Origin: Allokutzneria sp. NRRL B-24872
GTDB taxonomy: Bacteria > Actinomycetota > Actinomycetes > Mycobacteriales > Pseudonocardiaceae
Direction of reading: 5' to 3'
Length of the DNA stretch: 64,000 nt
NCBI RefSeq assembly: GCF_002155965.1
Contig: NZ_MUMH01000169.1
Span: 1 to 64,000 of the forward strand
Made by a program: the position numbers and the translations under genes. The notes under the pieces are model-generated. The model saw only the letters and a list, made by a program, of their open reading frames with translations. It searched no databases and had not been told where the DNA came from. This document shows, piece by piece, positions 37,097 through 56,600 of this stretch (positions are counted from its first letter, which is position 1; each line of letters opens with the position of its first letter).

Positions 37097-37103
37097 GGTG
37101 ATC

Positions 37104-37134
37104 ACGCTAGAAACTCAACCTCGGTTGAGGTCAA
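37104..37134 (-). promoter_or_regulatory. MerR-type promoter with 19-bp spacer
   Basis: On the minus strand TTGACC (plus 37129-37134) and TAGCGT (plus 37104-37109) are separated by 19 bp. The over-long spacer contains the perfect dyad CTCAACC-GA-GGTTGAG read in minus sense (plus 37114-37129). A 19-bp spacer with a central palindrome is the hallmark of SoxR/MerR-activated promoters. No MerR gene lies in the window. Confidence 0.6.
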
Positions 37135-38127: not shown

Positions 38128-38260
38128 GATCCCCCTAGTCTCTCCGGGAGATCCTGCCACCAGATGACGGGACACCTCGCCGCTGGCCTCCGCAGATGCC
38201 AGGTGCGCTGTCCTGTCGGTCGCGGGGTTCTGTGCACCCAACCCTCGCCGCCGAGGTGTT

Positions 38261-38303
38261 CAACGTCGGCAAACCCCGTTGTGTGGTGGGTTTGCCGACG
38301 TTG
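38261..38303. terminator. Perfect 16-bp terminator hairpin
   Basis: CAACGTCGGCAAACCC (38261-38276) and GGGTTTGCCGACGTTG (38288-38303) are exact complements with an 11-nt loop. It lies 12 bp past the aminopeptidase stop (minus strand) and upstream of the hydrolase gene, so it insulates the two. Confidence 0.75.
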
Positions 38304-38314
38304 GTGACGTGGGG

Positions 38315-40828
38315 CTAGGCGTTCTGGGCGCGCAGCGTGCGCTTCAGCTCGTCACCGCATTCGAGCACCAGGCGCCGCAACCACCACGGCGGAGCGGCCT
38401 CGGCGAGGTAGGCCTCCGTGCTTGCCAAGGTCTCCTGCGACACCGCCGACGACGGATACCCCGCCTTCGCCAGCACGCGCGTCAACTCGGTCGGCCACAC
38501 CTCCGACACCGCCCGCAACGCCGCGAAGTACTCCTGCGCGTAGGGCTCCAGCACCTGAGCGTCAGCGACGTCCTGGAAGCCGTCGAGCACCGAGCGCAGG
38601 ATCTCGTTGGACAGCTCGCCGGACACCACGCGCTCCCACGCCGCCGCCTTCGCCGCAGCCGTGCTCACGGCCGCACGGCACGCGGCGGCGCTGCGCTCAC
38701 CACTGGCGGTGGCATCACGCTGAAGCTCCTTGTCGATCTCCGCCTCACCCACGCGCCCGTGCACCACCAAGCGCCGCAGCAACGACCAGCGCAGATCGGT
38801 GTCCACGGCCAACCCGTCCAGCACGGTCGACCCGTCGAGCAGCCCGGCCACGACGTCCAATTGCTCGGCGGAGCACGCCACCGACGCGAAGGACTGCACG
38901 TACGCCAGCTGCTCCTCACCACCGGCCTCGGCCTCGCGCGCCAAGCGGAGCACTCCCTCGGCCAGCGCGCCCACGACCTCGGCGCGCGTGGACCGCGAGG
39001 TGTACTGCTGCGCGGCGGAGCTGGCCTGGTTGAGCAGGGTCCGCAGGATCGTGACACCGACCGACAGCGCCCCGGAGAGCACCAACCGCACGTAGTCCCG
39101 CGCGGGGAGATCGGCGTCGCGGGTCATGTCCCACGCGATGGACCAGCACACCGCCTGCGGCAGCGGATCAGTGAGCTCACCGATCCCGCCGAGCACCGCC
39201 GCCAGGGACTCCGGGTCGAGGCGGATCTTGGCGTAGGTGAGGTCGTCGTCGTTGAGCAGCACCAGCTCCGGCCGCGCCACCCCGAGCAGCTCGGCGACCT
39301 CGGTGCGCTCACCGGAGATCTCCAGCTCCACCCGACGCTGCCGGTTCCCCTTGTCGTACAAGCCGATCGCGATGCGGTGCGGCCGCAACGCCGGGTAGTC
39401 CTCAGGGGCCGTCTGCACGACCGCGAACGAGCTGAACCGGCCGTCACCGTCCACAGTGAACTCCGGGCGCAGCGTGTTCGGCCCCGAGGTGCGCAACCAC
39501 AGATCGGCCCAGTCCGACAGATCGCGCCCGGACTTCTCCTCCACCGCGCGCAGCAGGTCCGCCAGCGTCGTGTTGCCCCACGCGTGCCGCTGGAAGTACA
39601 GCCGCAGGCCCGCCAGGAAGTCCTCCAGGCCGATCGAGGACACCAGCTGCTTCAGCACCGAAGCGCCCTTGTGGTAGGTGATCGCGTCGAAGTTCACCTC
39701 CATCGAGGTGATGTCCACGATGTCGGCGACCACCGGGTGCGTGGAGGGGAACTGGTCGGCCTGGTAGGCCAATCCCTTGTAGCGGTCGGCGAAACTGGCC
39801 CACCCGTTGTCCCACCGCGTCGCCGACACCAACGCCAGCGAGGCCGCGTAGGTCGCGAAGGACTCGTTCAGCCACAGGTCGTCCCACCACCGCATCGTCA
39901 CGAGGTCGCCGAACCACATGTGCGCCATCTCGTGCAGGATCGTGGTCGCGCGCCGCTCGTAGTCGGCATCGGTGACCTTCGACCGGAAGACGTACTGCTC
40001 CCGGAAGGTCACGCAGCCCGGGTTCTCCATCGCCCCGAAGTTGAACTCCGGCACGAACACCTGGTCGTACTTGCCGAAGGGGTAGCGCATCTCGAAGGCG
40101 CCCTCGTAGAAGCCGAACCCGCGCCGCGTCACGTCGAAGATCGCCTCGGCGTCCAGGTGCTCGGCCAGCGAGGCCCGGCACAGCAGCCGCAGCGGGATGC
40201 GCCCGTCGTAGTCATCGTCGGCCACCACGTGGTACGGCCCCGCGCACACCGCCGCGAGGTAGGTCGAGATCCGCTCAGAAGCGGGGAAGCTCCACCGCCG
40301 AGCTTCGCCCTCAGCCGAAACCGAAACCGACGACGAGGCCGTGTTGCAGACGACCTCCCAGTGCGCGGGCGCGATGACGGTGAACGCGAACGCGGCCTTG
40401 AGGTCCGGCTGGTCGAAGCAGGCGAGCACCCGGTGCGCGTCGGCGGTGGCGAACTGGCTGTAGAGGTAGACCTCGCCGTCGGCCGGATCGGTGAAGCGGT
40501 GCAGGCCCTGCCCGGAGCGCGAGTACGCGCAGTCAGCCACCACGCGCAACTCGTTGTCCTCTGCCAGCCCCGTCAGCGGGATGCGCCCCTTCTCCGCGTC
40601 GTAGCGCGCCGGATCGACGGGGGAGCCGTTCAACGTCACCTCGCGCACGACCGCGTCGGCGAGGTCGCAGAACACCTCACCACCGCTCTCCGAGCTGCGG
40701 AAGCGCGCCACCGTGGTGGAGGAGAAGTGCTCAGACCCCGTGGTCAGATCGAGTTCGACCGCGTAGGAGTCGACGGTGAGCAGACGGGAGCGCTCCAGCG
40801 CTTCGTCCCGCGTCAGATTTCCAGCCAT
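38315..40828 (-). CDS. pepN: Aminopeptidase N (M1 family)
   Basis: Predicted 837-residue cytosolic zinc metallopeptidase. The exopeptidase motif GAMEN (FNFGAMENPGCVTF) and the zinc site HEMAHMWFGDLVTMRWWDDL followed by WLNESFA (HExxH plus 18 residues plus Glu) are intact, and a catalytic Tyr lies later (ITYHKGASVLKQL). An ERAP1-like helical C-terminal domain completes the usual actinobacterial length. It removes N-terminal amino acids during peptide turnover. The ATG is preceded by a region without a strong Shine-Dalgarno. It is divergent from a small hydrolase gene and appears monocistronic. Confidence 0.95.
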   Translation of the reverse strand: MAGNLTRDEALERSRLLTVDSYAVELDLTTGSEHFSSTTVARFRSSESGGEVFCDLADAVVREVTLNGSPVDPARYDAEKGRIPLTGLAEDNELRVVADCAYSRSGQGLHRFTDPADGEVYLYSQFATADAHRVLACFDQPDLKAAFAFTVIAPAHWEVVCNTASSSVSVSAEGEARRWSFPASERISTYLAAVCAGPYHVVADDDYDGRIPLRLLCRASLAEHLDAEAIFDVTRRGFGFYEGAFEMRYPFGKYDQVFVPEFNFGAMENPGCVTFREQYVFRSKVTDADYERRATTILHEMAHMWFGDLVTMRWWDDLWLNESFATYAASLALVSATRWDNGWASFADRYKGLAYQADQFPSTHPVVADIVDITSMEVNFDAITYHKGASVLKQLVSSIGLEDFLAGLRLYFQRHAWGNTTLADLLRAVEEKSGRDLSDWADLWLRTSGPNTLRPEFTVDGDGRFSSFAVVQTAPEDYPALRPHRIAIGLYDKGNRQRRVELEISGERTEVAELLGVARPELVLLNDDDLTYAKIRLDPESLAAVLGGIGELTDPLPQAVCWSIAWDMTRDADLPARDYVRLVLSGALSVGVTILRTLLNQASSAAQQYTSRSTRAEVVGALAEGVLRLAREAEAGGEEQLAYVQSFASVACSAEQLDVVAGLLDGSTVLDGLAVDTDLRWSLLRRLVVHGRVGEAEIDKELQRDATASGERSAAACRAAVSTAAAKAAAWERVVSGELSNEILRSVLDGFQDVADAQVLEPYAQEYFAALRAVSEVWPTELTRVLAKAGYPSSAVSQETLASTEAYLAEAAPPWWLRRLVLECGDELKRTLRAQNA

Positions 40829-40910
40829 CCCAGCACCCTAATCGGGGCGGCCGTTCCGCTGACGGCGGAACCGGCACCCCCCCAGGCCGCCACGCTCCTA
40901 CGGTTGCCGC

Positions 40911-41708
40911 ATGACGACTCCGATCTCGGGCACCGCCGCTGGCGTGCCGTTCACCGCCCTCGCCCCGGCAGGCGGCGGGCCCGCGCCGCTGATCATCAGC
41001 TGGCACATGCTCGACGCACCGCGCTCGGACCCCGCCTTCGCCGCGGCGCTGCCGATGCACGGCCTGCCCGCGTGGCGGGTGCACCTCGGGATGCCGATGT
41101 GCGGGGCGCGCATGGTCAACGGCTCCATGGACGCCGCTCTGGAGCTGGTGCACAAGGACCCGCTGATGGCCTACCTGCACCCGTTCGTCGAGCAGGCCGC
41201 AGGGGAGTTCCCCGCCGCGCTGGCCGCCGTCCGCGAGCAACTGCCCGTGGGTGACGGCCCGATCGGCGTGCTGGGCGGCTCCCTCGGCGGAGCCGTCGCG
41301 TTGCGCGTGCTCGCCGACACCCAGACGCCGATCTTCGCGGGAGCGCTGGTCAACGCCGCGATCCGGATGCGCTCGGTCGTGGACCTCTTCCCGGGCCAGT
41401 ACCCCTACGACACCGACTCCGACAAGGCCGTGGACAGCCTCGACTTCCTCGCCAAGGCCGACGTCCTGGCCGAGCGCGCGCCACTGCTGGTCGTCAGCGG
41501 CGAGCAGGACCACCCCGGGCTGCGCGCCGACGCGATCAGCCTCGCCGAGGCGATGGGGGAGCGCGCGCAGCTGCTGTCGATCCCCGACATGGCGCACCCG
41601 TTGGCCGAGGAGCCCGGCATCGAGCCCGCGCCGCAGCTGCCGCACGCCCGCGCCGTCGACGACGGTCTCATCGCGTGGTTCGGCCGCCACCTGCGGTCAC
41701 TGGGGTAA
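40911..41708 (+). CDS. Alpha/beta hydrolase
   Basis: Predicted 265-residue hydrolase. The nucleophile elbow is [18 protein letters not shown] (G-G-S-L-G), the acid region [13 protein letters not shown] and the His [13 protein letters not shown], a complete Ser-Asp-His set typical of dienelactone-hydrolase-like or peptidase S9-like enzymes. TACGGT at 40899-40904 stands six bases before the ATG with no Shine-Dalgarno, so the mRNA is probably leaderless. Its C-terminal coding segment (41607-41655) is nearly identical to a linker segment in the EndoQ/UvrD gene. Substrate unknown. Confidence 0.8.
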
Positions 41709-42116
41709 GGCCTCCGCGCTGTACTGGTCGACGAACTCGCCCGTTGGCGGGATCGGGGTGATCACGTCGATCAGCACGCCGTTGGGGTCGGCGACGATGA
41801 AGTGCCGCTGCCCGAACGCCTCGCTGCGCAGCGACCGCGCCAGCGGCAGTCCCGCTTCGGTGACCAGGCGCTCGTACTCGGCGTCCACGTCGCCGACCTC
41901 GAAGTTGAGCAGCAGTCCGGCCACCGGCGCGCCGTAGCCGTCGGGGATGGTCGGATGCGCCGGGTCGAGCACCGCGAGCTCGTAGGTGCCGAGCTGGAGG
42001 CTGATGTACCAGTCCGCCTCGAAGGTCACCTCGAAGCCGAAGTGCTTCACGTAGAAGTCCCGCGTCTCGGTCAGCTTGGTCGTCATGATCACCGGGTAGA
42101 AGCTGGTCAGAGTCAT
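41697..42116 (-). CDS. VOC (glyoxalase/bleomycin-resistance-like) family protein
   Basis: Predicted 139-residue protein with the paired beta-alpha-beta modules of VOC proteins: [60 protein letters not shown] and [20 protein letters not shown]. Metal-binding His/Glu positions are not all obvious, so it could be a binding (resistance) protein rather than an enzyme. ATG 42116 is chosen by family length. It faces a TetR gene across two palindromes and overlaps the convergent hydrolase end by 12 bp. Confidence 0.82.
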
Positions 42117-42137
42117 GGTGTCCGCCCTAGATCGACA

Positions 42138-42188
42138 ATACCGACTGTCGGTATGTATTATCGACCATAAGAAACCGACCGACGGTAT
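42138..42188. promoter_or_regulatory. Paired TetR operators (VOC/TetR pair)
   Basis: ATACCGAC-T-GTCGGTAT (42138-42154) is a perfect 8-1-8 dyad; AAACCGAC-C-GACGGTAT (42172-42188) is the same site with two changes, 34 bp on. Both lie between the VOC gene and the TetR gene, the second ending 20 bp before the TetR start. Confidence 0.72.
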
Positions 42189-42208
42189 GTCAACAGGGGG
42201 CGCCACCC

Positions 42209-42793
42209 ATGGCCACCAAGCGCGAACAACGCGAACAGACCAGCGCCGCACTGCGCACCACCGCGCGGCGCCTGTTCGCCGAACACGGCTACGCCCACGT
42301 CGGCCTCGAAACCATCGCCCAGGCAGCGGGCGTCACCAAAGGCGCCCTCTACCACCACTTCAGCAGCAAAGCCGTCCTCTTCCGGCACGTCCTCGCCGAC
42401 GTCCAGAACGAGGTGGGGGAGCAGGTCCAGCGCGTCGCCGAAGCCCAACCCGACTGCTGGAGCTACCTCGTCGAAGGCTGCCGCGCCTTCCTCGACGCCA
42501 GCACCCACCCCGACATCCAGCGCATCATGCTCATCGACGGCCCCGCCGTCCTCGGCTGGAACGACTGGCGCGCACTCGACGAACAGTCCTCCGCCCGCCT
42601 GCTCACCGAAGCCCTCACCACCCTCATCGCCGCCGGCACCATCCCGCCCCAACCCGTCGAACCCCTCGCCCGCCTGCTCTCCGGCGCCGTGAACGAGGCC
42701 GCGCTCTGGCTCGCCCAGTCCGGCAACACCGCCACCGACCGCGACGCCACCATCGCCGCCCTCACCCGCATGCTCGACTCGCTCCGCGAGTAA
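42209..42793 (+). CDS. TetR family transcriptional regulator
   Basis: Predicted 194-residue repressor. The HTH ([29 protein letters not shown]) follows a typical helix 1 ([15 protein letters not shown]). The C-terminal domain ([42 protein letters not shown]) is of the common AcrR-like type with unknown ligand. AGGGGG lies about 9 bp before the ATG. It is expected to repress itself and the VOC gene through the two 17-bp dyads upstream. Confidence 0.88.
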
Positions 42794-42932
42794 GGTGACG
42801 CCCGACCGATCGCCAGAACCCGCGAGGGAGGTGGGAACCCATGTCCGCACCAGCAGGACGGGCGCTCACCCCCACCCCCACGCCGTAGGGGCCACGCGAG
42901 CGCCCGTGGGACACCCCCGAAAGGCACTCGAC

Positions 42933-43700
42933 ATGCCACACCAAGCGATCATCACCCGGCTCCGCGCCGCCGGCTGCGTCTTCGCCGAAGACGAAGCCCA
43001 GCTGCTCACCACCGCCGCGACCGGCCCCACCCACCTCGACGCCATGGTCGACCAACGCGTCGCCGGACTCCCGCTCGAACACATCCTCGGCTGGGCCGAG
43101 TTCCACGGACTCCGCATCACCGTCACCCCCGGCGTCTTCGTCCCCCGACGCCGCACCGCACACCTCGTCACCCACGCCACACCACTGCTGCGCCCGCACG
43201 CCGTCGTACTCGACCTCTGCTGCGGAACAGGCGCACTCGGCGCCGCACTCGCCACCGCCGAGCCCCGCATCCACCTCCACGCCGCCGACATCGAACCCGC
43301 CGCCGTCGCCTGCGCCCACCACAACATCACCCCGCACGGGGGAGCGGTCCACCACGGCGACCTCTACGACGCCCTGCCCAGCGCACTGCGCGGCCGCATC
43401 GACCTCATCGTCGCCAACGCCCCCTACGTCCCCACCGACGCACTCGCCCTCATGCCACCCGAAGCACGAGAGCACGAACCCCGCGTCGCACTCGACGGCG
43501 GCACCGACGGACTCGACCTCCACCGCCGCATCGCCGCCGAAGCACCCCACTGGCTGGCACCCGACGGCCACCTGCTCGTCGAAACCAGCCGACGCCAAGC
43601 CCCGCACACCGCGGAAGCCCTCTCCGCCAACGGCTTCCGCCCCGCCACCCACCACGACGACACCCTCGACGCCACCCTCATCCACGCCACCCGCCCCTGA
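42933..43700 (+). CDS. Putative protein-(glutamine-N5) methyltransferase, PrmC-related
   Basis: Predicted 255-residue SAM methyltransferase. LEHILGWAEFHGLRITVTPG and VFVPRRRT resemble the HemK/PrmC N-terminal part, motif I is VLDLCCGTGALGAALA, and the PrmC NPPY motif is replaced by NAPYVPTDAL. The NAPYVPTDA form marks the PrmC-related subfamily of unknown substrate. The true PrmC that methylates release factors should be elsewhere in the genome. I chose the ATG at 42933, preceded by AAAGG; an open frame upstream starts inside a His/Pro-rich stretch unlike the family. Confidence 0.78.
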   Translation: MPHQAIITRLRAAGCVFAEDEAQLLTTAATGPTHLDAMVDQRVAGLPLEHILGWAEFHGLRITVTPGVFVPRRRTAHLVTHATPLLRPHAVVLDLCCGTGALGAALATAEPRIHLHAADIEPAAVACAHHNITPHGGAVHHGDLYDALPSALRGRIDLIVANAPYVPTDALALMPPEAREHEPRVALDGGTDGLDLHRRIAAEAPHWLAPDGHLLVETSRRQAPHTAEALSANGFRPATHHDDTLDATLIHATRP

Positions 43701-43726
43701 CCCAGACACACCCCGGGAGGGGTCAG
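43697..43726. terminator. Possible terminator between convergent genes
   Basis: CTGACCC (43697-43703) and GGGTCAG (43720-43726) can pair around an inner CCCC-GGGA-GGGG hairpin. The element overlaps the PrmC-like stop and lies before the convergent ATPase gene. The structure is short, with no T-run. Confidence 0.4.
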
Positions 43727-43779
43727 ACCACGGCCACGCGCGAAGAGGGGAGCGGGCGCGTGACGTGCACGGACGGACT

Positions 43780-44970
43780 CTAGACGAGCTTCTCGATGCG
43801 GCCCTTGATCACGATGTACGGCGGCAACAGGGGATCGCGGAACCGGTACCGAAAACGCCGGGACGACCCGATCCGCTGCAGAATCCCACCCCGCGACCCC
43901 TCCGACGAGAAGTTCTTCAAGTGCACCGCGAACGCCGGGATGTCATAGGCCTTCCCCGTGATCAACCGCAACTTCTCCCGCACGTCAGGCGCACCGAAAG
44001 ACCCCAGATCATCCTTCTCCGCCACCGCGCACGCCAACAACACCTCCTTGTACAACGTCTCCCGATTGCTCTGCGTCGCCCGGTGGTACCGCTCCCGAAC
44101 ACTCTGCGACGCCGCGTCCAACGCATCGGTCAACGCGTCCTCGAAGTCCGCCCGCTTCACCAACTCCCGCCCGGCCTCCAACGCCCGCGTCGTCCCGTAC
44201 TGCCCCAACAGGTGCGTGTAGTGCGGCAACCCCTGCGACATCTCCGCCACCGCGTCCACGAACTTCGGCTGCGCCTGCATCGACAACGCCCGCACACCCC
44301 GCCGCACGATCTCCCGCAACTCCTCATCGGTCATCCGCGGCATCTGCACCTGCACCAACGACCGCTGGATCGAAGCGTGCTCACTCACCAACTCGTCCAC
44401 CGTGTCCGCGACACCCACCAGCACCACGGTCGCCTCGACCGACCGATCCGCCAGGATCTTGATCGTGTCCGCGATCAACGTCCGCACCCGCTGATCCCTC
44501 GGCCGGTCGAACTCATCGATCAACACCACGATCGACACGCTCTCGCACAACATCGCCAGCACCCGCACCACCGAATGCGGCGTCACCCGCCCCGGCAACA
44601 ACTCCGTCCCCGACTGCAACACCCGCCGCGCCGAGTGCCCGAACCCCATCCGCGCCTCCTGCGTCAGGATCGGGATCTGCTCGAACACCCCCGTCCAGAT
44701 CGACTTGAAGCTGTCCTCGGAATTGCACACGTAGTACGGCGCCACCACCGTCTCCGGCAACAGGTTCTGCGTCACCCGCGCCAACGACGTCTTCCCGACC
44801 CCGCGCTCCCCGTAGATCAACGCGTGCTGACCCCGCTGCGCCGCCACCCCGGTCAACGTCCGCAACTGCGACTTCCGCCCGGCGAACAGATCCCGGTCCA
44901 TGATCGGAGCCGCCGGGCTGAACGCCCGCCCGACCGCGCTCGCCCGCTCCACGTACTCGCTCTCGTCCAC
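43780..44970 (-). CDS. AAA/P-loop ATPase
   Basis: Predicted 396-residue ATPase of the ORC/Cdc6-like or AAA_16 fold. Walker A LIYGERGVGKTSLARV lies near residue 53, Walker B SIVVLIDEFDRPRDQ near residue 148, a sensor strand ATVVLVGVADTVDEL follows, and MPRMTDEELREIVRRGVRAL is the helical lid. The C-terminal part (YDIPAFAVHLKNFSSEG, GSSRRFRYRFRDPLLPPYIV) resembles a winged helix. GGAGG precedes the GTG. The gene lies 103 bp downstream of a frameshifted gene on the same strand, probably its former operon partner. The role (signalling or transport ATPase, or a defence or replication factor) is open. Confidence 0.72.
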   Translation of the reverse strand: MDESEYVERASAVGRAFSPAAPIMDRDLFAGRKSQLRTLTGVAAQRGQHALIYGERGVGKTSLARVTQNLLPETVVAPYYVCNSEDSFKSIWTGVFEQIPILTQEARMGFGHSARRVLQSGTELLPGRVTPHSVVRVLAMLCESVSIVVLIDEFDRPRDQRVRTLIADTIKILADRSVEATVVLVGVADTVDELVSEHASIQRSLVQVQMPRMTDEELREIVRRGVRALSMQAQPKFVDAVAEMSQGLPHYTHLLGQYGTTRALEAGRELVKRADFEDALTDALDAASQSVRERYHRATQSNRETLYKEVLLACAVAEKDDLGSFGAPDVREKLRLITGKAYDIPAFAVHLKNFSSEGSRGGILQRIGSSRRFRYRFRDPLLPPYIVIKGRIEKLV

Positions 44971-45073
44971 GGTGATCGCCTCCGACCGGTCGTGGTACCC
45001 CGAACCCCCGACTATCCCGAACCATGATCAGCGTCCAAGTTCGTTCCGGTCACGGTTCGCACCCGTCACCCAC

Positions 45074-46531
45074 TCAGCACACGGGGGAGGGCACCGACCC
45101 CCGCACCACGAACACGCACGACGGCACCTGAGCCAGAACGTGCAGATCCGACACCCGCAACACCGACACCGCCCGCGCCTCACCCGTCCGCGACCCCGCG
45201 AACTCCACCGGACCCGACGCACCCTCGAACGACCGCAACTCCCGGATCTCTCGACCCACCGCGACCCGCTGCGCCGCGGGCACCCGCACCGCCTCCGCGC
45301 GTCCGCACCGAACACCCGCGAAGCGTTGTCGCTGTAGCCGACGCACTCCTTGATCCCGTCCAACCACCGCAGCTCGACACCGGGGGAGAAGGGGCGCAGG
45401 CAGTCGTGCCGCCACCGCAGGTACAACCCGTCACCCGCCGCGAGCACCCCGGCCGTCAACACCGCCACCACCAACGGGACGAAAACCAGCTTCCGCGCCA
45501 GCAACGGCGGCCGCCGCGCCTCGAACACCACCACCGCATCGCCGTCACCAGCAGCACCCTCCGGCAGCTCCAAGAACAGCAACCGCGCGTCCGGCCGCAA
45601 CGTCTGCCGCCCGGCGGGGAGCCATTCCCGCCACTCCTCGAACGCCTCCTTCGCCTCAGCCACCGGAGCCGACACCGTCGCCACGATCAGCAGCGGGCCG
45701 TGCTCCGTCGACTCGTTCCGGATGTCGTTGACCAGCCGCAACAACCGCCAGCCACCGTTGTCCTCGGACACGTTCTCCAACAGCACCGGCACGTACGAGG
45801 TCCGCCGCCACCTCCGCAACCGCACCGCACGAGGCCGGTACTCCGCGCGCAGGTCCTGGAGGAAGGCGTGCGCCAGCAGCTTCTCCAGGTTCTCCGTCGA
45901 CCGCCCGCTGCGCGTCAGCCGCTCAGCGAAACCGACGAACCCCGTCGAGTGCCCGGGCACCATGAAAGGCTGGCGCATCAACCACTTCGGCTCCCGCCCG
46001 AACACGCACCACAGCCACGCGCGCACCGGCCGGCGCCACACCGCGAGCAAGGTCAACAACCAGGAAGGCTGGGGGAGAGCACCGTCGAACCCGCCCGAGG
46101 CCGGTCGGTTCTCCGGATCGACGGGCCGCCGGTACCCAGTCCTGCAACCGCCGGAACATGTCCCGGTGCCCGTCGTCGCCCGGCGCCAGCGACTGCGAGC
46201 TCAGCCAGTCCACCAGCCCGTAGTGCCGGAACCGCCGCAAACCGTTCCTGCTGAACCTGTTCACCTTCAACTGCGTCGCCAGCTCGTCCAGCAACGGCAA
46301 CAGCGGCAGCGAACCTCGGCGCGCCGGCTCCCAACGCCGCGCGCAGGCCTCGTCAGCGCCATCGGCGTCGATCCTGGCGAAGTCGTGGTCGTCACCCGAG
46401 GCGTTCTTGATCAAGCAGATCACGGGGAGCGGGCGGTCGCCGCGGATCGCCTTGTCCGGCCGACGCCACCACCTCGGGCGGTCGACGAGCTCGCGGAAGA
46501 CCGCCAGCAACGCGCCAAGTCCGTTCGCCAC
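45074..46531 (-). pseudogene. Frameshifted P-loop/transmembrane protein gene, partner of the AAA ATPase
   Basis: The coding signal starts at ATG 46531 (MANGLGALLAVFRELVDRPR) and continues in three frames. Removing one G from a GGG run (plus CCC at 46136-46138) joins FRRLQDW to YRRPVDPENRPASGGFDGAL. A second shift in a GCGCG run near 45302 joins VFGADA to EAVRVPAAQRVAVGREIREL, ending VSVLRVSDLHVLAQVPSCVF then VVRGSVPSPVC. The middle has one transmembrane segment (VFVPLVVAVLTAGVLAAG). The DGIKECVGYSDNASRVFGAD part resembles the entry to a periplasmic-binding-type domain, most of which seems missing. Two indels plus a probable internal deletion suggest decay; sequencing error at the two runs cannot be excluded. 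Confidence 0.6.
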
Positions 46532-46608
46532 CGAACCTCACCCTCTGTGCGCCGACAGCTGCGGAGGGGAGTATCACCAGAGGCCGACGGGACGGGTCCC
46601 GAACGCTT

Positions 46609-46636
46609 AGTTGACATAATGTAGATTATCGGCGTT
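46609..46636 (-). other. dif: dif chromosome dimer resolution site (XerC/XerD)
   Basis: Read on the minus strand the 28 bp are: left (XerC) arm AACGCCGATAA, 6-bp centre TCTACA, right (XerD) arm TTATGTCAACT. The layout of 11-6-11 and the arm ends ATAA/TTAT are those of bacterial dif sites. From memory, the B. subtilis dif right arm is TTATGTAAACT (one difference) and the E. coli right arm is TTATGTTAAAT. It lies 78 bp upstream of the frameshifted gene, in a 660-bp gene-free stretch. XerC and XerD recombine sister chromosomes here at cell division. An integrated element borrowing Xer is the main alternative. Confidence 0.72.
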
Positions 46637-46845
46637 TTGCCGACCTGGGCGGATACGTCTGAGAGGGGCTTCGAACGCCTGGTGTGCCGAGCTTCCGCGG
46701 CTGGTCGCACAGCCCGCGGATCGCTGACTGCCGCACGCGCTGCTCATGCGCGCTTCGCTGTGCCGCCCGCTCGTCGTGCTGCGACGGGGTCCGCGAGGTG
46801 CGGAGGCGGCCACCGGGCACTGAGGGGCCTCCAGGGGCTCGCCCA

Positions 46846-46912
46846 CCGACGTCCGGACACCTTCCCTCGTTTCGTCACAGTGACGCATATGGGCATGGTG
46901 TCCGGACGTCGG
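46846..46912. repeat. Large nested inverted repeat near dif
   Basis: CCGACGTCCGGACACC (46846-46861) and GGTGTCCGGACGTCGG (46897-46912) are perfect 16-bp complements separated by 35 bp. Within the spacer CGTCAC-A-GTGACG (46873-46885) is another perfect dyad. No gene spans the region. Confidence 0.7.
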
Positions 46913-47004
46913 CACGGAAGCGAGAATGCGCACCCCGGCAAATTCGGGGATCATTCCCGCACTCCCCGTGTGGACTCAGGAGAAACGACCGACCCCCATC
47001 CGTA

Positions 47005-47034
47005 TTTGGTGGATAACAGTAATTATCCACCAAA
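47005..47034. repeat. Symmetric recombinase-site-like palindrome near dif
   Basis: TTTGGTGGATAA (47005-47016), centre CAGTAA (47017-47022), TTATCCACCAAA (47023-47034). The arms are exact complements around a 6-bp centre, and they end in ATAA and begin with TTAT like Xer sites. It is AT-rich against the surrounding sequence and lies 368 bp from dif. It could be a tyrosine recombinase core site or a regulator dyad. Confidence 0.6.
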
Positions 47035-47148
47035 CTGGCAACGGTGGTTACTCGCGCGATCAATTCTTCCCGCAGGCGCATCACCCTGGACAAGAACGCG
47101 CGCGACTCTCTCCCATGGGCGAAGGAGCTGCTCAGCGGGTCGTAGAAT

Positions 47149-47163
47149 CCGTTTCGTACTCAT
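47149..47163 (+). repeat. Dispersed palindromic element, half copy
   Basis: CCGTTTCGTACTCAT is identical to the left arm at 52449, and the following AGCGGGA matches the copy at 20776; the right arm is absent. A small hairpin AGCGG...CCGCT follows directly. It lies just past the end of the convergent SnoaL-like gene. Confidence 0.6.
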
Positions 47164-47194
47164 AGCGGGAAATGAGACCGCTCCCCTGGCGACG

Positions 47195-48736: not shown

Positions 48737-49267
48737 ATGGCGAATGAGGTGTGGGGGCTCGACGGTGTTGCCCGATCGTGGCCGACGGAGCTCGCTGAGG
48801 ACGAGCTGCGGTTGCAGTGGGAGTTCCTGGGGTTCTTGCGGGCGACGGCGGTGAACAAGGTGGTGGGTGTGGCGCCGGAGCTGGCGGCGGCGACTCCGTG
48901 GCCGACGTCGCCGTTGATGAGCTTGTTGGGTGTGGTGAAGCACCTGACCGCGGTGGAGCGGTTCTGGATGTCGCGCGTCGGTGGTGGGTTGGACGTGCCG
49001 TTGCTGTGGGATTCGGAGGACGAGTGCGCGGAGTTCCGCCTCTCCCCCGCTGACACTCCGGAGGCGGTGTTGTCGGCGTACCAGGCGGAGTGGGTGCGGT
49101 CGGAGGAGGCGTTGGCGGGGTTGGGGCCGGACGACCTGGCGCTGCGCGAGGTCGGTGGTGATCGGACGGTGCGGTGGGTCTTGGCGCACGTGGTGCAGGA
49201 GACGGCTCGGCACGTGGGGCACCTGGATGTGTTGCGGGAGTTCGCTGACGGGTTGGTCGGCGAGTAA
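48737..49267 (+). CDS. DinB/DUF664 family protein
   Basis: Predicted 176-residue four-helix protein. LMSLLGVVKHLTAVERFWMS carries the first His and WVLAHVVQETARHVGHLDVL the other two, the DUF664 DinB metal pattern also seen in the protein at 2.2 kb. A transferase using a low-molecular-weight thiol is the family expectation. TAGCCT at 48724-48729 lies seven bases before the ATG and there is no Shine-Dalgarno, so initiation is probably leaderless. The next gene follows after 30 bp. Confidence 0.8.
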   Translation: MANEVWGLDGVARSWPTELAEDELRLQWEFLGFLRATAVNKVVGVAPELAAATPWPTSPLMSLLGVVKHLTAVERFWMSRVGGGLDVPLLWDSEDECAEFRLSPADTPEAVLSAYQAEWVRSEEALAGLGPDDLALREVGGDRTVRWVLAHVVQETARHVGHLDVLREFADGLVGE

Positions 49268-49297
49268 TCCGGTTGCCGGTGTCGGCAGGATCGTGGC

Positions 49298-49687
49298 ATG
49301 GGTGTTGAGCTTGTTCGTGGTGTGAAGCTGAGTGATGTCGCGGAGTACGCGTACGCGTCGGTGGCCAACGGTGTGGTGTTCACGGCGGGTGCGTGTCCGT
49401 TGGACGCGGAGGGGCGGACGGTCGCGGTCGGCGATTTCGTGGGGCAGGCGCGGCAGGTGATGGAGAACCTGGAGGTCGCTCTGCGTGCGGCGGGGTCGTC
49501 GTTGGCGGGGGTGGCGAAGTCGACGGTGTACGTGCGGTCGTCGGAGCAGGCGGATCTGGTGGCGGTGTGGGAGGTCGTGCGCGCGGCGTTCGGTGACCAC
49601 GATGCGCCGAGCACGTTGCTGGGTGTCGCGGCGCTGGGTTATGACGACCAGTTGGTCGAGGTCGAAGCGGTGGCGGTGCGGGGCTGA
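49298..49687 (+). CDS. RidA family protein (YjgF/YER057c/UK114)
   Basis: Predicted 129-residue protein with the Rid fold: YAYASVANGVVFTAGACPLD, VGQARQVMENLEVALRAAGS, VAKSTVYVRSSEQADLVAVW and LLGVAALGYDDQLVEVEAVA. The Arg that binds the carboxylate of imine substrates in true RidA (the usual PxRxxxxV before the end) is not evident, since LGVAALGYDD occupies that region, so it may be a non-deaminase Rid subgroup. The next gene starts two bases after its stop. Confidence 0.82.
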   Translation: MGVELVRGVKLSDVAEYAYASVANGVVFTAGACPLDAEGRTVAVGDFVGQARQVMENLEVALRAAGSSLAGVAKSTVYVRSSEQADLVAVWEVVRAAFGDHDAPSTLLGVAALGYDDQLVEVEAVAVRG

Positions 49688-49688
49688 G

Positions 49689-49988
49689 GTGGCTCAGGTG
49701 GAGGTTGTCCTGCTCTGGCACGTGCGGCACGCGAGGAACCTGGACGGCTCGATCGATCACGTCGACGATGAGGGCGAGCTGGCCTTGGACGAGGAGGAGG
49801 GCGATGACCTCAAGCTCCTCGGTGTCTATTCGTCGGAGCGGCGTGCTCAGGAGCGGATCGAGCGCGCGCGGGAGCTTCCTGGTTTCGCTGATGAGCCTGA
49901 CTGCTTCTTCACGTCCAGCTGCGTCGTGGACGAGGACCAGTGGGCGGACGGGTTCTTCACGGTGTGGCGCGGGGTGAGCGATGGGTAG
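49689..49988 (+). CDS. DUF7336-like small protein
   Basis: Predicted 99-residue acidic protein: VEVVLLWHVRHARNLDG, DDLKLLGVYSSERRAQERIE, ARELPGFADEPDCFFTSSC and DEDQWADGFFTV. The LLWHV...KLLGVYSSE..A...LPGF..EPDCF....DEDQWADGF layout matches a widespread small family (DUF7336 as I recall it) of unknown role, often in polymorphic-toxin immunity neighbourhoods. GTG 49689 is one base past the RidA stop, and its 3' end overlaps the next start by 8 bp. Confidence 0.65.
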   Translation: MAQVEVVLLWHVRHARNLDGSIDHVDDEGELALDEEEGDDLKLLGVYSSERRAQERIERARELPGFADEPDCFFTSSCVVDEDQWADGFFTVWRGVSDG

Positions 49989-50466
49989 TTCGTTCGGGCG
50001 GTCTCGGGCCGACGCGGAGCATGGGTTGTACCTGTCGAACGGGGGCACGGAGGTGTTCCTGGACGTGCTCGCGCTGGCGGCGTGCGATCTGGCGGCGTCG
50101 GAGTGGGAGGTGCGGTTCGCGTTGCTGTGCTGCAACTCCCGCATCGGTGGGGGCAACGACGGGTTCGATCTGGACGAGCTGCCGTGGGGTGAGGCGGAGT
50201 GGCCGGTGCAGCGGGAGTTCCTGCTGCGGGTGGTGGACACGGCGTTGGGTCGGCACCGGTGGGAGGTGTTGGGGTACGACCCGCCTGCGGCGTTGGGCTA
50301 CCTGCGGCGGTATCGCGAGGTGGTGCGCGGGTACGTGCCGGCCCCGCCGTTGTCGTCGGTGGTGGGTTGGTGGGAGTACGAGCGCGATGAGGCGCATCTG
50401 CGGCGGTGTGGGCGGCACGGGTTGTTCGTGGGTGTGTTCGAGGACTGTCGTCTGTGCGCGGGTTGA
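49981..50466 (+). CDS. Hypothetical protein
   Basis: Not recognised. The 161-residue protein starts at ATG 49981 inside the previous gene. It has a Trp/Arg-rich, mainly helical make-up (GGTEVFLDVLALAACDLAAS, EWEVRFALLCCN, VQREFLLRVVDTALGRHRWE, GYDPPAALGYLRRYREVVRG). Paired cysteines close the C-terminus (RRCG...DCRLCAG), which with FALLCC gives five in all. It belongs to a tight three-gene run with RidA and the DUF7336-like gene. Confidence 0.55.
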   Translation: MGSSFGRSRADAEHGLYLSNGGTEVFLDVLALAACDLAASEWEVRFALLCCNSRIGGGNDGFDLDELPWGEAEWPVQREFLLRVVDTALGRHRWEVLGYDPPAALGYLRRYREVVRGYVPAPPLSSVVGWWEYERDEAHLRRCGRHGLFVGVFEDCRLCAG

Positions 50467-50470
50467 GTGC

Positions 50471-50690
50471 TCAGCAGTGCAGTTTCGTGACGATGAGCAT
50501 GTCGTAGCAGTGGATTTGGTGCCGCTGGCTTTGCGCGGTAGGTCGACGCCGTCGTAGTCCAGTGCTCGGAGCGTGGACTGGCCGGGGCGGAGTGTGCGGC
50601 GGCTCCTCGTGCCCCAGCTCTTGATCGCCTTGATGGTCTTGTTCGTTCTGTTGCTGACCCAGCGGAGGGGTGGCCCAGTCGTTTGCGGCA
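50471..50690 (-). pseudogene. Decayed small secreted-type protein fragment
   Basis: The 340-bp gap 50467-50805 has no intact gene. On the minus strand one frame reads RWVSNRTNKTIKAIKSWGTR and SRRTLRPGQSTLRALDYDGV, then DLPRKASGTKS. Changing frame gives HCYDMLIVTKLHC and a stop at 50471. The pattern (VSNRTxKTI...RTLRPGQST...C) recalls small secreted actinobacterial proteins, but no signal peptide or start is present. It is presumably a truncated, frameshifted remnant. Confidence 0.3.
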
Positions 50691-50805
50691 GGGTGCAAAG
50701 CAAGCCGATTACCTGCTGGTAACGGGTTGTGACGAGCGGGTGTGGGTGGCGTGGGCCGTGACGTAGCGTCGCTGGCCTTACCCCCTGTTGGACCAGGGAG
50801 GACCC

Positions 50806-52356
50806 GTGACCGCCTCCGCGTTGCACCCGCTTTCCCGCGTGCTGGAGTTCACCGCGCGTGGTTGGTGGGGGCCGGAGACGGTGGACGGGTTGTTCCGGCG
50901 GCAGGTGCGGGAGCGGCCGGGTGCGCTGGCGGTGGTGGACTCCCCCGAGAAGGTGGAGCTGACGGGGATCGCGCCGCACCGGTGGAGTTGGGCGCGGTTG
51001 CACGTGGAGGTGGACCGGCTGGCGGCGCTGTTGCAGCGCAACGGTGTGGGGCCGGGCGACATCGTGGGTGTGCAGTTGCCGGGCTGCGTGGAGCTGGTCG
51101 CGACGTTCCTGGCGGTGGTGCGCCTGGGTGGTGTGGTGTGTCCGTTGCCGGCGCGGTACCGGGAGTACGAGCTGCGGGCGCTGTTGCCGTTGGCTGGTGT
51201 GCGGACGTTGGTGACGGCGACGCGGATCGGTGGGCGGCGGCCGGCGGGGGTGGCGCGTCAGGTGTGCGGTGACGTGGTGACGGTGTTGGCGTTCGGGCCG
51301 AAGGTGCCGCGTCGGGTGGTGGCTGTGGACGCGGCGGAGCGGGCGGTCCCGGTCGGGGGTTATGAGGCCGATCCGAACCATTGCGTGTCGATCTGCTGGA
51401 CGTCGGGGACCGAGGGGACGCCGAAGGCGGTTCCTCGGGCGCACTACGACTGGTTGGCGATCGCGCGGGCGTGTGCCGGCGCGGTGGCGTTGGCGGCGGA
51501 CGATGTGATCGTGAATGCGTTTCCGCTGGTGAACGTGGCGGGGATCGCGGGTGCGGTGTTGCCGTGGTTGTTGTCGGGATGTCGGTTGGTTGCGGGGCAG
51601 CCGGTTGATCTTGTGCGGCAGATCTCGGCGGAGCACGTGACGTGTGCGGTGGTGCCGCCCGCGTTGTTGGCGTCGTTGGTGCGGCGGGAGCTGCCGTCGG
51701 TGCGCGCGATGGTGGGTTCGGGGTCGCTCTCCCCTGGTGTGGTGCGGGAGTGGCAGGAGCGGCGTGGTGTGCCGGTGGTGAGTTTCTTCGGGTCGTGCGA
51801 GGGGACGGTGCTGTTCAGCACGGCGGCCGATGTCGCTGATCCGGAGGCGAGGGCGCGGTTGTTCCCGCGTGGGGCGTTGCGGATGCGCTTGGTCGATCCG
51901 GTGTCGGAGCGGGAGATCACTGAGCCTGGCCGCGTGGGTGAGCTGCGGGTGGCGGGTCCGACGGTGTTCCCGGGCTATCTGTTGGGGACCGGGGACGATC
52001 CCTTTGATGAGCTGGGGTTTCTGCGGACGGGTGATCTGTTCGAGTTCGTCGGGCCGTTGCTGCGCTATGTCGACCGCGTACGGGATGTGATCGTGCGGGA
52101 CGGGGTGCGGGTGGTGCCGTCTGCGGTGGAGTCGGCGTTGGCGGAGCACCCGTTGGTTGCGGAGGCCGCGGTGGTGGCGTCGCCGGAGGGCGAGGTGTGC
52201 GCGTTCGTGGTCGCGGACGTTCTCGACGACGAGGCTGTGCGTGAGCACCTGCGGGGGCGTGGTGTGGCGGTGCCGGATCGGTTCGAGATGGTCGACGCTC
52301 TCCCCCGCACCTTCGCGGGGACGTTGGTGCGGCGGGAGTTGCGTCGTCGTCTCTAG
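50806..52356 (+). CDS. AMP-forming acyl/aryl ligase-like protein (ANL superfamily) lacking the A10 lysine
   Basis: Predicted 516-residue adenylate-forming enzyme. Motif A3 is ICWTSGTEGTPKAVPRAHYD, A5 is VVSFFGSCEGTVLFS, A7/A8 are GFLRTGDLFEFVGPLLRYVD and RVRDVIVRDGVRVVPSAVES. In motif A10 the usual PRTxxGKxxRREL reads PRTFAGTLVRREL, so the catalytic Lys for adenylation is Thr. Other parts look intact, so this is unlikely to be decay. Such enzymes may use preformed adenylates or act in ring or acyl transfer; the substrate is unknown. GTG start behind GGGAGG. It is a lone gene, not in a biosynthetic cluster. Confidence 0.75.
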   Translation: MTASALHPLSRVLEFTARGWWGPETVDGLFRRQVRERPGALAVVDSPEKVELTGIAPHRWSWARLHVEVDRLAALLQRNGVGPGDIVGVQLPGCVELVATFLAVVRLGGVVCPLPARYREYELRALLPLAGVRTLVTATRIGGRRPAGVARQVCGDVVTVLAFGPKVPRRVVAVDAAERAVPVGGYEADPNHCVSICWTSGTEGTPKAVPRAHYDWLAIARACAGAVALAADDVIVNAFPLVNVAGIAGAVLPWLLSGCRLVAGQPVDLVRQISAEHVTCAVVPPALLASLVRRELPSVRAMVGSGSLSPGVVREWQERRGVPVVSFFGSCEGTVLFSTAADVADPEARARLFPRGALRMRLVDPVSEREITEPGRVGELRVAGPTVFPGYLLGTGDDPFDELGFLRTGDLFEFVGPLLRYVDRVRDVIVRDGVRVVPSAVESALAEHPLVAEAAVVASPEGEVCAFVVADVLDDEAVREHLRGRGVAVPDRFEMVDALPRTFAGTLVRRELRRRL

Positions 52357-52448
52357 CGCCGGTCCTGCGCGTGGTTGAGCCGCGTCTGCCGGCGTCGGCG
52401 CCGCCCCAGGCCAACGCCCACTCCACGTCTCCCAGGCGCGCCAAGATT

Positions 52449-52509
52449 CCGTTTCGTACTCATGACGGCCTTTGGGAGCGCTCTATTTCCCGTTATGAGT
52501 ACGAAACGG
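52449..52509. repeat. Dispersed palindromic element, copy 2
   Basis: CCGTTTCGTACTCAT (52449-52463) and ATGAGTACGAAACGG (52495-52509) are perfect complements. The internal segment TTTGGGAGCGCTCT-A-TTTCCC is nearly the same as in the copy at 20776. It sits between the convergent ANL and SRPBCC genes. Confidence 0.75.
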
Positions 52510-52611
52510 GGGTTTCCAGACCACCGCGAGGCGCGTTGAGGGGGTGCGGGCGGTGGGGTGCACGGGGAAGAGTCTACGTGGCTGGCGCGGAGCGGGGTCT
52601 GGTGTGGATCT

Positions 52612-53100
52612 TCAGAGGTCGGCGAGGAGTTCGTCGAGCTTCTGGTAGCCCTCGACGACGCCGGTCTCCATGCCGCTGGCGATCATGGCGTCGCGGGCTT
52701 CCATGGTGTCGACGACGGAGAGGCCGACGATGCGGCTGCGGCCGTCGCCGAGGTCCTCGAAGGTCATGGTCTCCAGGCTGACGCCGTCGGGGTAGCCCTC
52801 GTAGGTGAAGGTCTGGACGATGCGCTCGCCGTCGCGGACCTCGTGGAAGGAGCCGTAGAAGGAGGCCAGCAGTTCGCCGTCGCGGGAGTTGGTGAAGCGG
52901 TAGCTGCCGCCGGTGCTGGCGTCCCAGTCCTGGATGTCGGTGGTGACGCTGCGGGGGCCGATCCACTTGGCGTAGAGCTCGCGGTCGGTGTAGGCGCGGA
53001 AGACCTTGGCGGCGGGGGCGTCGAACTCGCGGGTGATGCGGATGGTCGGCAGGTTCGGGTCGGCTTCGATGGTGGTCTCGTTGCTGGTCCTGGTGCTCAT
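52612..53100 (-). CDS. SRPBCC/AHSA1 family protein
   Basis: Predicted 162-residue START-like protein of the AHSA1/CalC type: IRITREFDAPAAKVFRAYTD, ELYAKWIGPR, GGSYRFTNSRDGELLASFYG, SFHEVRDGERIVQTFTYEGY and VVEGYQKLDELLADL. The fold binds hydrophobic ligands. The pairing with an upstream ArsR gene (ATGA overlap) is a common, conserved arrangement in which the ArsR represses both. ATG 53100 gives the family length. No enzyme activity is assigned. Confidence 0.88.
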   Translation of the reverse strand: MSTRTSNETTIEADPNLPTIRITREFDAPAAKVFRAYTDRELYAKWIGPRSVTTDIQDWDASTGGSYRFTNSRDGELLASFYGSFHEVRDGERIVQTFTYEGYPDGVSLETMTFEDLGDGRSRIVGLSVVDTMEARDAMIASGMETGVVEGYQKLDELLADL

Positions 53101-53471
53101 GACGCTGCTCCTTCGGTGTCTTCGCGTGCGTCTTCGGTGTCGTCCATGGCCGCCAGGAGGGCGTCGAGGCGGGTGAACCGCTCCTCTGCCTGGCGGCGGT
53201 AGCGCTCGATCCACTTGGTCATGAGGTCGAACACCTCCGCTTCGAGGTGGCACGGCCGTTTCTGGGCGTCGCGGCTGCGGCTGACCAGTCCGGCGTCTTC
53301 GAGCACTTTGAGGTGCTTGGAGACGGCCTGGGTGGAGACCTCGTAGGGCTCGGCCAGCTCGCCCACGGTCGCGTCGGCGACGGAGAGCCGGGCGACGATG
53401 TCGCGGCGGATGGGGTCCGACAGTGCCGCGAAGACCCGGTTGAGCCGGTCGTCGGGTTGGGGCGCGGTCAT
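53097..53471 (-). CDS. ArsR family transcriptional regulator
   Basis: Predicted 124-residue winged-helix repressor: RLNRVFAALSDPIRRDIVAR, ATVGELAEPYEVSTQAVSKH, LKVLEDAGLVSRSRDAQKRP and an acidic tail (DDTEDAREDTEG). The metal-binding Cys residues of true ArsR/SmtB are absent, so it is the non-metal subgroup typical of SRPBCC operons. It leads the two-gene operon and has two matching dyads around its own promoter, so autoregulation is very likely. Confidence 0.9.
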   Translation of the reverse strand: MTAPQPDDRLNRVFAALSDPIRRDIVARLSVADATVGELAEPYEVSTQAVSKHLKVLEDAGLVSRSRDAQKRPCHLEAEVFDLMTKWIERYRRQAEERFTRLDALLAAMDDTEDAREDTEGAAS

Positions 53472-53493
53472 CGGGTCACCTCCAGCTCGTTTG

Positions 53494-53553
53494 CAACCAT
53501 TTGGTTGAGCAAGACTGTAGGAGCCGCCCCCGGCGTTGTCAACCTAATGGTTG
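53494..53553 (-). promoter_or_regulatory. ArsR operon promoter with two operators
   Basis: On the minus strand TTGACA (plus 53537-53542) and TACAGT (plus 53514-53519) have a 17-bp spacer, a near-consensus housekeeping promoter. CAACCA-TT-TGGTTG (53494-53507) lies downstream of the -10 and CAACCT-AA-TGGTTG (53540-53553) covers the -35, with centres 46 bp apart. Their placement suits repression by the ArsR protein. Confidence 0.7.
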
Positions 53554-53580
53554 CGCAAGTGCCTTGAGCTGCGCACGAAG

Positions 53581-53610
53581 CGGCCCCCGCCCAGGTTCGG
53601 GCGGGGGCCG
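53581..53610. terminator. Terminator of the RND gene
   Basis: CGGCCCCCGCCC (53581-53592) and GGGCGGGGGCCG (53599-53610) are exact complements with a 6-nt loop, 15 bp past the RND stop (minus strand). Confidence 0.75.
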
Positions 53611-53625
53611 CTGGCAGCGCGAGGA

Positions 53626-56600
53626 TCAGAGGCGGGCGTGCTTGGGCATCGTCTCGGTCACCGGGTCGATCTCCTCGGGCCTGCGCCCGGTCAGCTTGTC
53701 CACCACCGCGTACAGCACCGGGACCACCACCAGCGTCAGCAGCGTCGAGCTGACCAGGCCGCCGATCACCACCACGGCCAGCGGCTGCGAGATGAACCCG
53801 CCACCACCGGTCAGCCCGAGCGCCATCGGCGTCAGCGCGCCGATCGTGGCCAGCGCGGTCATCAGGATCGGGCGCAGCCGGTGCCGCCCGCCCTCCACGA
53901 TCGCCTCCGTGGCGCCCATGCCCTCGGCCCGGTAGTGGTTGATCAGGTCGATCAGCACGATCGCGTTGGTCACCACGATCCCGACCAGCATCAGCAGACC
54001 GATCAGCGCGGGAACGCCCAGCGGGGTGCCGGTGATCAGCAGCAGGCCCAGCGCGCCGGTCGCGGCGAAGGGCACCGACACCAGCAGGATCAGCGGCTGC
54101 ACCAGGCTGTGGAAGGTCGCCACCATCACCAGGAACACCAGCACGATCGCGGCGACCAGGGCCACGCCGAGGTCGGCGAAGGCGTCCTGCTGCTGCGAGG
54201 TCGCTCCCCCGATCTCGTAGGAAGCACCGGCGGGCAGCTTCAGCGCCTGCAACCGCTTGGCCAGCTCCGCGCTGGTCGCGCCGAGGTCGGAGCCGGTGGC
54301 CGTGGCGGTCACGGTGGCGCTGCGGGTGCCGTCGGTCCTGGTCAGCTGCGTCGGGCCGGTCGAGGTCTTCACCTCGGCGATGCTGTCCAGGCGCACCGGG
54401 CCCGCCAGGGTCGGCACCTGCATCGCCTTGAGGCCGTCCACGCTGGACGGAGTGCCGGAGCCGCGCAGCACGACCTCCTGCTCGGTGCCGTTGACCACGA
54501 CCTTGCTCAGCGTGCTCCCGCGCAGCGCCTCGCCGACGACCTGGCCGACCGCGGCCTCGGTCAGCCCGGCGCGCGCGGCGGCCTGGCGGTCCACCTTCAC
54601 GTCGACCAGCGGGGCGTCGGCGGTGAGGTTGCTCGCCACGTCCGTGGTGCCGGGGGTCTCGGCGACGGTGCGGCGGACGTCCTCGGTGGCCTTGGCCAGC
54701 GCGGCGTCGTCGGGGCCCTGGACGACGACCTCCAGCTTGGAGCCGTCGAAGCCACCACCGGCGGCCTGCACGCTGACCTTGCCGACCTCCACCAGGGAGG
54801 TGATCCGGGTGCGCAGGTCCTTCTCGATCGCGGCCTGGTCGGCCTCCACGTCCGTGGTGACCGAGAACGTCGCGGAGGTCGCGCCGCCCGCCGGGCCGCC
54901 GAGCCCGGGGAAGCCGCCCCCGCCGCCGATGGTGGCCTGGTAGGACTGCACGCCCTTGACCTGGCCGAGCACCTTCTCGATCTTCTTCGCCGCGGCGTCG
55001 GTGGCCTCGAGGCTGGTGCCGACGGGCATCTCCTGCTTGACCGAGAGGGTGTTCTGGCCGTCGCCGCCGATGAAGTTGGTCTTGAGCTGCGGCACCAGGG
55101 CCAGCGTGCCGAGGAAGATGCCGAGCGCGACGAGCAGGACCGTGGCGCGGTGGGTGACCGACCACCGCAGGACCGGCACGTAGCTGCGCTGGAGGAAGCC
55201 GTTGCGCTCCTTCTCCTCAGCTTCCTCGCGGTCGACGGTGGAGGGCTTGAGGAACCAGTACGCCAGCACCGGCACGATCGTCAGCGACACCACCAGCGAG
55301 GCCAGCAGCGCCACGGTGACGGTGAGGGCGAAGGGCGCGAAGAGCTGGCCGACCATGCCGCCGACCACGGCGATCGGCAGGAACACCGCGACGGTGGTGA
55401 TCGTGGAGGAGGTCACCGCGCCGGCCACCTCGCGGACGGCCGTGGTGATCGCGACGCCCTTGGGTTCGCCGTAGCCGAGGTGCCGCTTGATGTTCTCCAG
55501 CACCACGATGGAGTCATCGACCACCCGGCCCACCGCGATGGTGAGCGCGCCGAGGGTCAGCATGTTCAGCGAGTACTCCCCCATCCACAGCGCGATCAGC
55601 GCGATGAGCACCGACAGCGGGATGGAGACGGCGGTGACCAGGGTGGAGCGCACGGAGAACAGGAAGACCAGGATCACCAGGACGGCGAAGACCAGGCCGA
55701 GCAGTCCTTCGGTGGTCAGGCCCTCGATGGAGCGCTCGACGAAGGGTGCCTGGTCGAAGACGACGGTCAGCGCGGCGCCCTGGCCGAGCGCGGTGCGCAG
55801 CTGCGGGAGCTTGTCGTTGACCGCGTGCGAGATCGCCACGGCGTTGCCGTCGGGGCCCGCGGTGACGCCGACGCCGAGGCTGGGGCGGCCGTTGGTCCTG
55901 GTCAGCGTGCTGGCCTCGGCCAGTCCCTGATCGACGGTGGCGACGTCGCTGAGCTTGACAGTCGTGCCGGGGCGGGTGGTGGAGGTCAGGGGCAGGTTCT
56001 TGAGGTCGTCGACGGAGGAGAAGGCGCCGCCGACGGAGACCGAGGAGGACTTGCCGTCGTCGGTGAGGGTGCCGCCGGGGATGGCGATGCCGTTGGCCTT
56101 GAGCGCGTTGCTCACCGACAGCGAGGTCATCCCGGCGCGCAGCATCTTCGCGGTGTCCGGGGTGATCGTGATCTGCGGATCGCGGGCTCCGGTCAGGGCG
56201 GCCTCGCGGACGCCCTCGATGCCCTGGAGCTCGGGCAGCACGTTCTGCCGCAGCGCCTTGGCCAGCGCCTGTTCGTCGGAGCCGCCGCTGGCGGCCAGCT
56301 GCACCACGGGCAGGTCGCTGGTGGTGCCCGCCACCACGCGCGGGGTGACGTTCTCCGGCAGCTGCGCGGAGATCCGGCTGACCGCGCGCTCCACCTCGCC
56401 GGTGATGTCGGAGACGGCGGTGCCGTAGTCGAAGGTGATCTGCACGGTCGCCGAGCCGGAGCGGGAGAACGCGGTCGTCTCCGTCACCCCCTGCACGGAG
56501 CGCACTGCGCGCTCGATCGGGACGGTGACCTGGGATTCCACGATCGCCGGCGCGGAGCCCGGGTAGGGCGCGACCACGGAGATCGTGGGCAGTTGCAGAT

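Follow-up and report, generated by a model that had tools for sequence, protein, structure and literature searches.

The contig analysed here, from a draft genome of 8.19 Mb (475 contigs, 95% complete), is 71 kb long, and the window comprises its first 64 kb (64,000 nucleotides). The window holds a stretch of 663 bp in which no ORF has a Pfam match, in line with the ~660 bp without a credible gene described in an earlier sequence-only reading. A dif site, a short palindrome and a dif-like dyad lie within this stretch, and copies of the heptamer GGGGGAG point toward it from both sides (Table 1). On its left flank, two overlapping ORFs of the minus strand (45028-46059 and 45923-46531) resemble one frameshifted gene, which may be real or due to a draft-assembly error. 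The stretch 45088-46515 is missing at this place in both same-genus relatives. Of the decayed genes reported around the site, this probable frameshift is the one that was recovered; nothing connects it to the terminus, which had been held to explain it.

Table 1 Features of the gene-free stretch and its surroundings (window coordinates)
Feature	Position	Strand	Remarks
Gene-free stretch	46532..47194	.	contains dif, palindrome and dyad
dif site	46609..46636	minus	28-bp core match, single copy, kept in relatives
dif XerC arm AACGCCGATAA	46626-46636	minus	
dif centre TCTACA	46620-46625	minus	
dif XerD arm TTATGTCAACT	46609-46619	minus	
Palindrome CGTCAC-A-GTGACG	46873..46885	.	conserved dif-linked element, always on the XerC side
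dif-like dyad TTTGGTGGATAA-N6-TTATCCACCAAA	47005..47034	.	proposed Xer3 site
Region left of dif	5463..46077	plus	14 GGGGGAG on plus (nearest 46071) vs 1 on minus (37312); toward dif
Region right of dif	49042..63911	minus	6 GGGGGAG on minus (nearest 49042) vs 0 on plus; toward dif

The sequence-only reading had proposed an 11-6-11 dif site at 46609-46636, to be checked by its copy number and its conservation. The minus strand gives AACGCCGATAA-TCTACA-TTATGTCAACT at exactly these positions, that is, 28 bp with a core typical of the phylum. At up to 3 mismatches, the core occurs once in the genome and has no match in 100 dinucleotide shuffles of the window, while its backward control has no match in the whole 8.19 Mb. 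The XerD arm is one base off what we take to be the XerD arm of B. subtilis, TTATGTAAACT. In relatives, the core was found in 109 of 120 genomes, almost always as a single copy. It also agrees with the candidate dif of Frankia alni, CACGCCGATAATGCACATTATGTCAAGT, used as the actinobacterial seed by Kono et al. 2011 (PMC3025954). The site shares with the predicted actinobacterial XerC/XerD-dif system (PMC3025954) its 28-bp 11-6-11 organization, core, single copy and place near the terminus. XerC, XerD and FtsK-gamma are likewise all encoded in the genome. No essential difference from that system was found, the outer arm bases AAC...ACT being genus-specific here. As a separate observation, the match of this genome's XerC (G000:C450:31916-32692, L098) to the XerC model starts only at model position 38, unlike in same-genus relatives; a truncation, a frameshift or an assembly error is possible.

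The place of dif on the chromosome was read from complete relatives. In G002, a complete genome of the same genus with synteny to the window on either flank of dif, the distance between dif and dnaA is 0.498 of the chromosome; in 18 genomes of the family that are complete or nearly so, its median is 0.486. The GC-skew flip that had been expected at the terminus has the right sign, with arm means of +0.014 and -0.009 in G002 (p = 0.012), but the signal is weak. Within the window it is swamped by local noise, and GC skew was set aside as a terminus marker.

An FtsK-orienting motif that changes strand at dif had also been anticipated. Among the 6-, 7- and 8-mers around dif in G002, a scan for leading-strand bias singled out GGGGGAG as the sole clear winner. 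Within 200 kb of dif, 54 forward and 4 reverse copies lie to the left, 0 and 76 to the right; for the 8-mer CGGGGGAG, the count is 83 vs 0. The density of GGGGGAG in G002 is higher close to dif than in sampled distant stretches. A strand switch of this candidate motif at dif is seen in G002, in G001 (31/31 polar, with the switch between -758 and +192 bp of dif) and in the window's contig (21/22), three counts drawn from partly orthologous DNA. Less dependent evidence is given by ten further genera of the family, with a polarity of 104 vs 5, and by five further families of the order, which also support it. The E. coli KOPS GGGNAGGG is not polar here, and neither GAGAAGGG of B. subtilis nor GAAGAAG of L. 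lactis switches strand cleanly. Base composition was rejected as the source of the polarity because polarity is lacking in most other heptamers made of six G and one A (GGGGAGG, partly polar, is an exception) and because the leading strand near dif is C-rich in other genera. GGGGGAG thus shares leading-strand bias, enrichment near dif and the strand switch at dif with the polar motifs known as KOPS or AIMS (PMC5357621, PMC5993296), although its sequence is unlike GGGNAGGG. We regard it as a KOPS candidate, presumably read by FtsK. For these bacteria, it offers a concrete candidate FtsK-guiding motif and a means of finding the terminus in draft genomes.

Overall, dif lies opposite oriC at the polarity switch, as judged from complete relatives and from the motif switch in the contig itself. 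The half-chromosome distance from dnaA in relatives, the strand switch and the conserved single-copy site together support the terminus reading, and 46609-46636 is confirmed as a real dif of the ordinary kind. The noisy GC skew of the window would fit a chance match or a decayed site with the real terminus elsewhere. We give this hardly any credence, since it is contradicted by the single copy, the conserved position, the distance from dnaA in relatives and the sharpness of the GGGGGAG switch.

The large dyads mentioned in the sequence-only reading also exist, and one is a separate conserved element. The suggestion that the terminus explains the dyads is not supported, since this one is a second site in its own right, specific and linked to a recombinase of its own. 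Its centre lies 397 bp from that of dif, on the XerC side. Read in the orientation of dif, the dyad is TTTGGTGGATAA-TTACTG-TTATCCACCAAA, and it is perfectly kept when the gene-free stretch is aligned between three same-genus genomes. At up to 3 mismatches, 11 of 120 genomes have it, each as a single copy, at ~350-610 bp from dif in ten of them and at 3.3 kb in one. Inspection of 93 oriented dif loci gave a more general form, TTT[GC][AG]TG[GC]ATAA-N6-TTAT..., with a spacer of constantly 6 bp. The distance to dif is usually 0.26-1.0 kb, and in the window's family the dyad nearly always stands on the XerC side. Beyond 1.5 kb from dif, the same 93 loci showed no strongly symmetric dyad.

The two arms covary. 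Positions -5, -8 and -9 are symmetric in 52, 47 and 42 of 56 dyads, where 30, 29 and 28 would be expected if the arms were independent. None of the 56 spacers is palindromic. The dyad shares its 11-6-11 layout and its inner ATAA/TTAT with Xer sites like dif. The polar motif is scarce between dyad and dif, with 3 copies vs 17.2 expected in the window's order and 1 vs 26.4 in the other order. Part of this scarcity is due to dif itself, since a milder one (4 vs 9.4 expected) is seen beside dif in loci that have no dyad.

Clustering of the reading frames near the dyad revealed a tyrosine recombinase distinct from both XerC and XerD, hereafter named Xer3. In this genome, its gene lies away from the window (G000:C54:599-1567). 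With the G002 orthologue (P0001) as query, strong orthologues were found in 40 of 120 genomes. Xer3 and the dyad occur together in 37/37 of the inspected dif loci that have either, and neither is present in the other 56 (Fisher p ~8e-27, uncorrected for relatedness, so that the counts overstate independence). The remaining three Xer3 genomes (G019, G085, G106) also carry the dyad. Among 395 sampled genomes of the class, Xer3 was found in 26 genomes of one family in another order; 25 of these have the dyad exactly once by a whole-genome pattern, with zero matches for the controls, and in the remaining one a variant lies close to Xer3. In total, all 66 genomes found with Xer3 have the dyad, vs 0 of 56 inspected dif loci without Xer3.

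Xer3 matches the Pfam Phage_integrase family, and its catalytic set R158, K184, H260, R263, H286 and Y295, the R-K-H-R-H-Y set of the tyrosine recombinase superfamily, is invariant in 63 aligned sequences. Its scores fall far below the equivalog cut-offs of XerC (150 bits vs 335) and XerD (143 vs 330), as well as those of XerS and XerA. In the tree, Xer3 forms a clade apart from XerC and XerD, within which families cluster. Xer3 is under purifying selection, with dN/dS of ~0.12 within the genus. Its phage relatives are distant, with at most 36% identity among the matches listed. In many genomes xer3 adjoins the dyad. In the window's clade, xer3 lies 143 kb from dif in G002 and ~1.5 Mb in G014 and G053, while the dyad remains beside dif. 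The dyad is therefore not merely an operator of xer3.

Seven genomes of one Xer3 subclade have no dif near the dyad and none recognisable genome-wide, and keep both Xer3 and the dyad. There, GGGGGAG converges on the dyad in 18 of 19 cases (left 10 and 1, right 0 and 8), small numbers that come from 2.4-3.9 kb read per locus.

From these data we propose that, beside the dif of the terminus at 46609-46636, Xer3 and the dyad probably form a second dimer-resolution system, with a single recombinase and a Cre/loxP-like site. On the dif of this presumably circular Pseudonocardiaceae chromosome, XerC and XerD would each occupy one arm. Convergent GGGGGAG would steer FtsK so that two dif copies are brought together and XerD is activated, and recombination by XerCD would then convert chromosome dimers to monomers at division. 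Both like arms of the dyad would be bound by Xer3, as third Xer-family tyrosine recombinase, and strands would be exchanged in the 6-bp centre, by analogy with Cre/loxP and XerH/difH. Dimers would then have a second route to resolution within the convergence zone that also holds dif.

In Cre/loxP of plasmid P1, a single tyrosine recombinase acts on symmetric arms around an asymmetric spacer and resolves replicon dimers. The proposed Xer3/dyad system would be alike in all these respects. On the other hand, the dyad spacer is of 6 bp as in Xer sites, whereas loxP is laid out as 13-8-13, and Xer3 resembles XerD. Single-recombinase Xer systems are also known, namely XerH/difH, XerS/difSL and archaeal XerA/dif (review PMC5357621). 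The proposed system would share with them one enzyme and a dif-like site near the terminus, and co-occurrence and layout link the dyad to Xer3 as a dedicated site of recombinase type. However, those systems replace XerCD, whereas Xer3 and the dyad mostly stand beside an intact XerCD/dif. Since most bacteria manage with XerCD/dif alone, a second system calls for a reason, and this counts against our proposal.

An accessory role is another way to read the pair: Xer3 would bind the dyad and aid or restrain XerCD at dif without recombining the dyad itself, much as accessory proteins act at plasmid cer and psi sites. The fixed nearness of the dyad to dif, mostly on one side, and the scarcity of the polar motif between them are what such a control element would give. 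Nevertheless, the seven genomes without recognisable dif keep dyad and Xer3, the active-site residues of Xer3 are invariant, and related pairs on plasmids (see below) mostly have no dif-like site, so that we hold this role to be unlikely. An integrase reading, in which Xer3, domesticated or still mobile, would use the dyad as attachment site in an insertion-tolerant terminus, is similarly improbable. Related recombinases do occur on plasmids and the gene often adjoins the dyad, but there is a single dyad per genome rather than a pair flanking an element, families cluster in the Xer3 tree and dN/dS is low. Moreover, gene and site are apart in the window's clade, yet both are kept.

The dyad could finally be an ordinary operator or a DnaA-type binding site, with no tie to recombination, since it stands just upstream of xer3 in some genomes and TTATCCAC resembles a DnaA box. 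This is very improbable. The flanking genes vary between genera and xer3 is far off in the window's clade, which excludes the operator of a conserved neighbour gene, and the TTATGCATG variant is not a DnaA box. In addition, the constant 6-bp spacer and the inner ATAA/TTAT are those of Xer sites, and the polar motif converges on the dyad where dif is missing. A second dimer-resolution system is favoured over a dif accessory element or a domesticated integrase.

Distant relatives of Xer3 (~31-38% identity) are found on large plasmids of Mycobacterium, Mycolicibacterium and Rhodococcus. A symmetric ATAA-N6-TTAT dyad, for example GTTCATGCATAA-CAGCTA-TTATGCATGAAC, lies 35 bp to 5 kb from the recombinase gene in 8 of the 9 plasmid loci read, a set chosen without plasmids that possibly bear mycolactone genes. 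The one exception is a 704-kb linear Rhodococcus plasmid, on which no dyad was found. On the M. vanbaalenii plasmid, the dyad is ~5 kb from the gene. Shuffled sequences gave no such dyad. These recombinase/dyad pairs, mostly without a dif-like site, fit a replicon-resolution cassette and suggest an origin for the chromosomal Xer3/dyad system. As a side observation, ~260 bp separate a symmetric dyad from a dif-like site, ATTTCGCCGATAATAGCGATTATGGTCAACAT, on the M. vanbaalenii plasmid (L289:2698-2990), which also encodes an Xer3-like recombinase.

More generally, we see an even chance that several actinomycete families have at their terminus, besides XerCD/dif, an independent Xer3/dyad system with a symmetric site, probably plasmid-derived, which has replaced a lost dif in one lineage. 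A third Xer recombinase or a second dif in actinobacteria is not described in the searchable literature, which excluded most subscription papers, and the novelty of Xer3/dyad is thus provisional. If the proposal is true, chromosome dimer resolution in many filamentous actinomycetes would depend on more than XerCD/dif. The terminus would be shared by a third recombinase that has a site to itself, and the lineage without recognisable dif would be a natural test of replacement. A single-copy site of 30 bp and a short gene make deletion and in vitro tests simple.

Other elements recur around dif. Of the 93 genomes of the order that were inspected, 49 have the palindrome CGTCAC(N)GTGACG to the XerC side of dif, whether Xer3 is present or not. 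Within 1.2 kb of dif, 59 copies are on this side and 0 on the other; in the 800 kb sampled of G002, the only copy is the dif-linked one. Finally, a gene set that recurs next to dif, on its XerC side, in some two dozen genomes of the family (e.g. G016, G026, G054), most of them without Xer3, includes, as judged by eye, a glycerophosphodiester phosphodiesterase-like protein.
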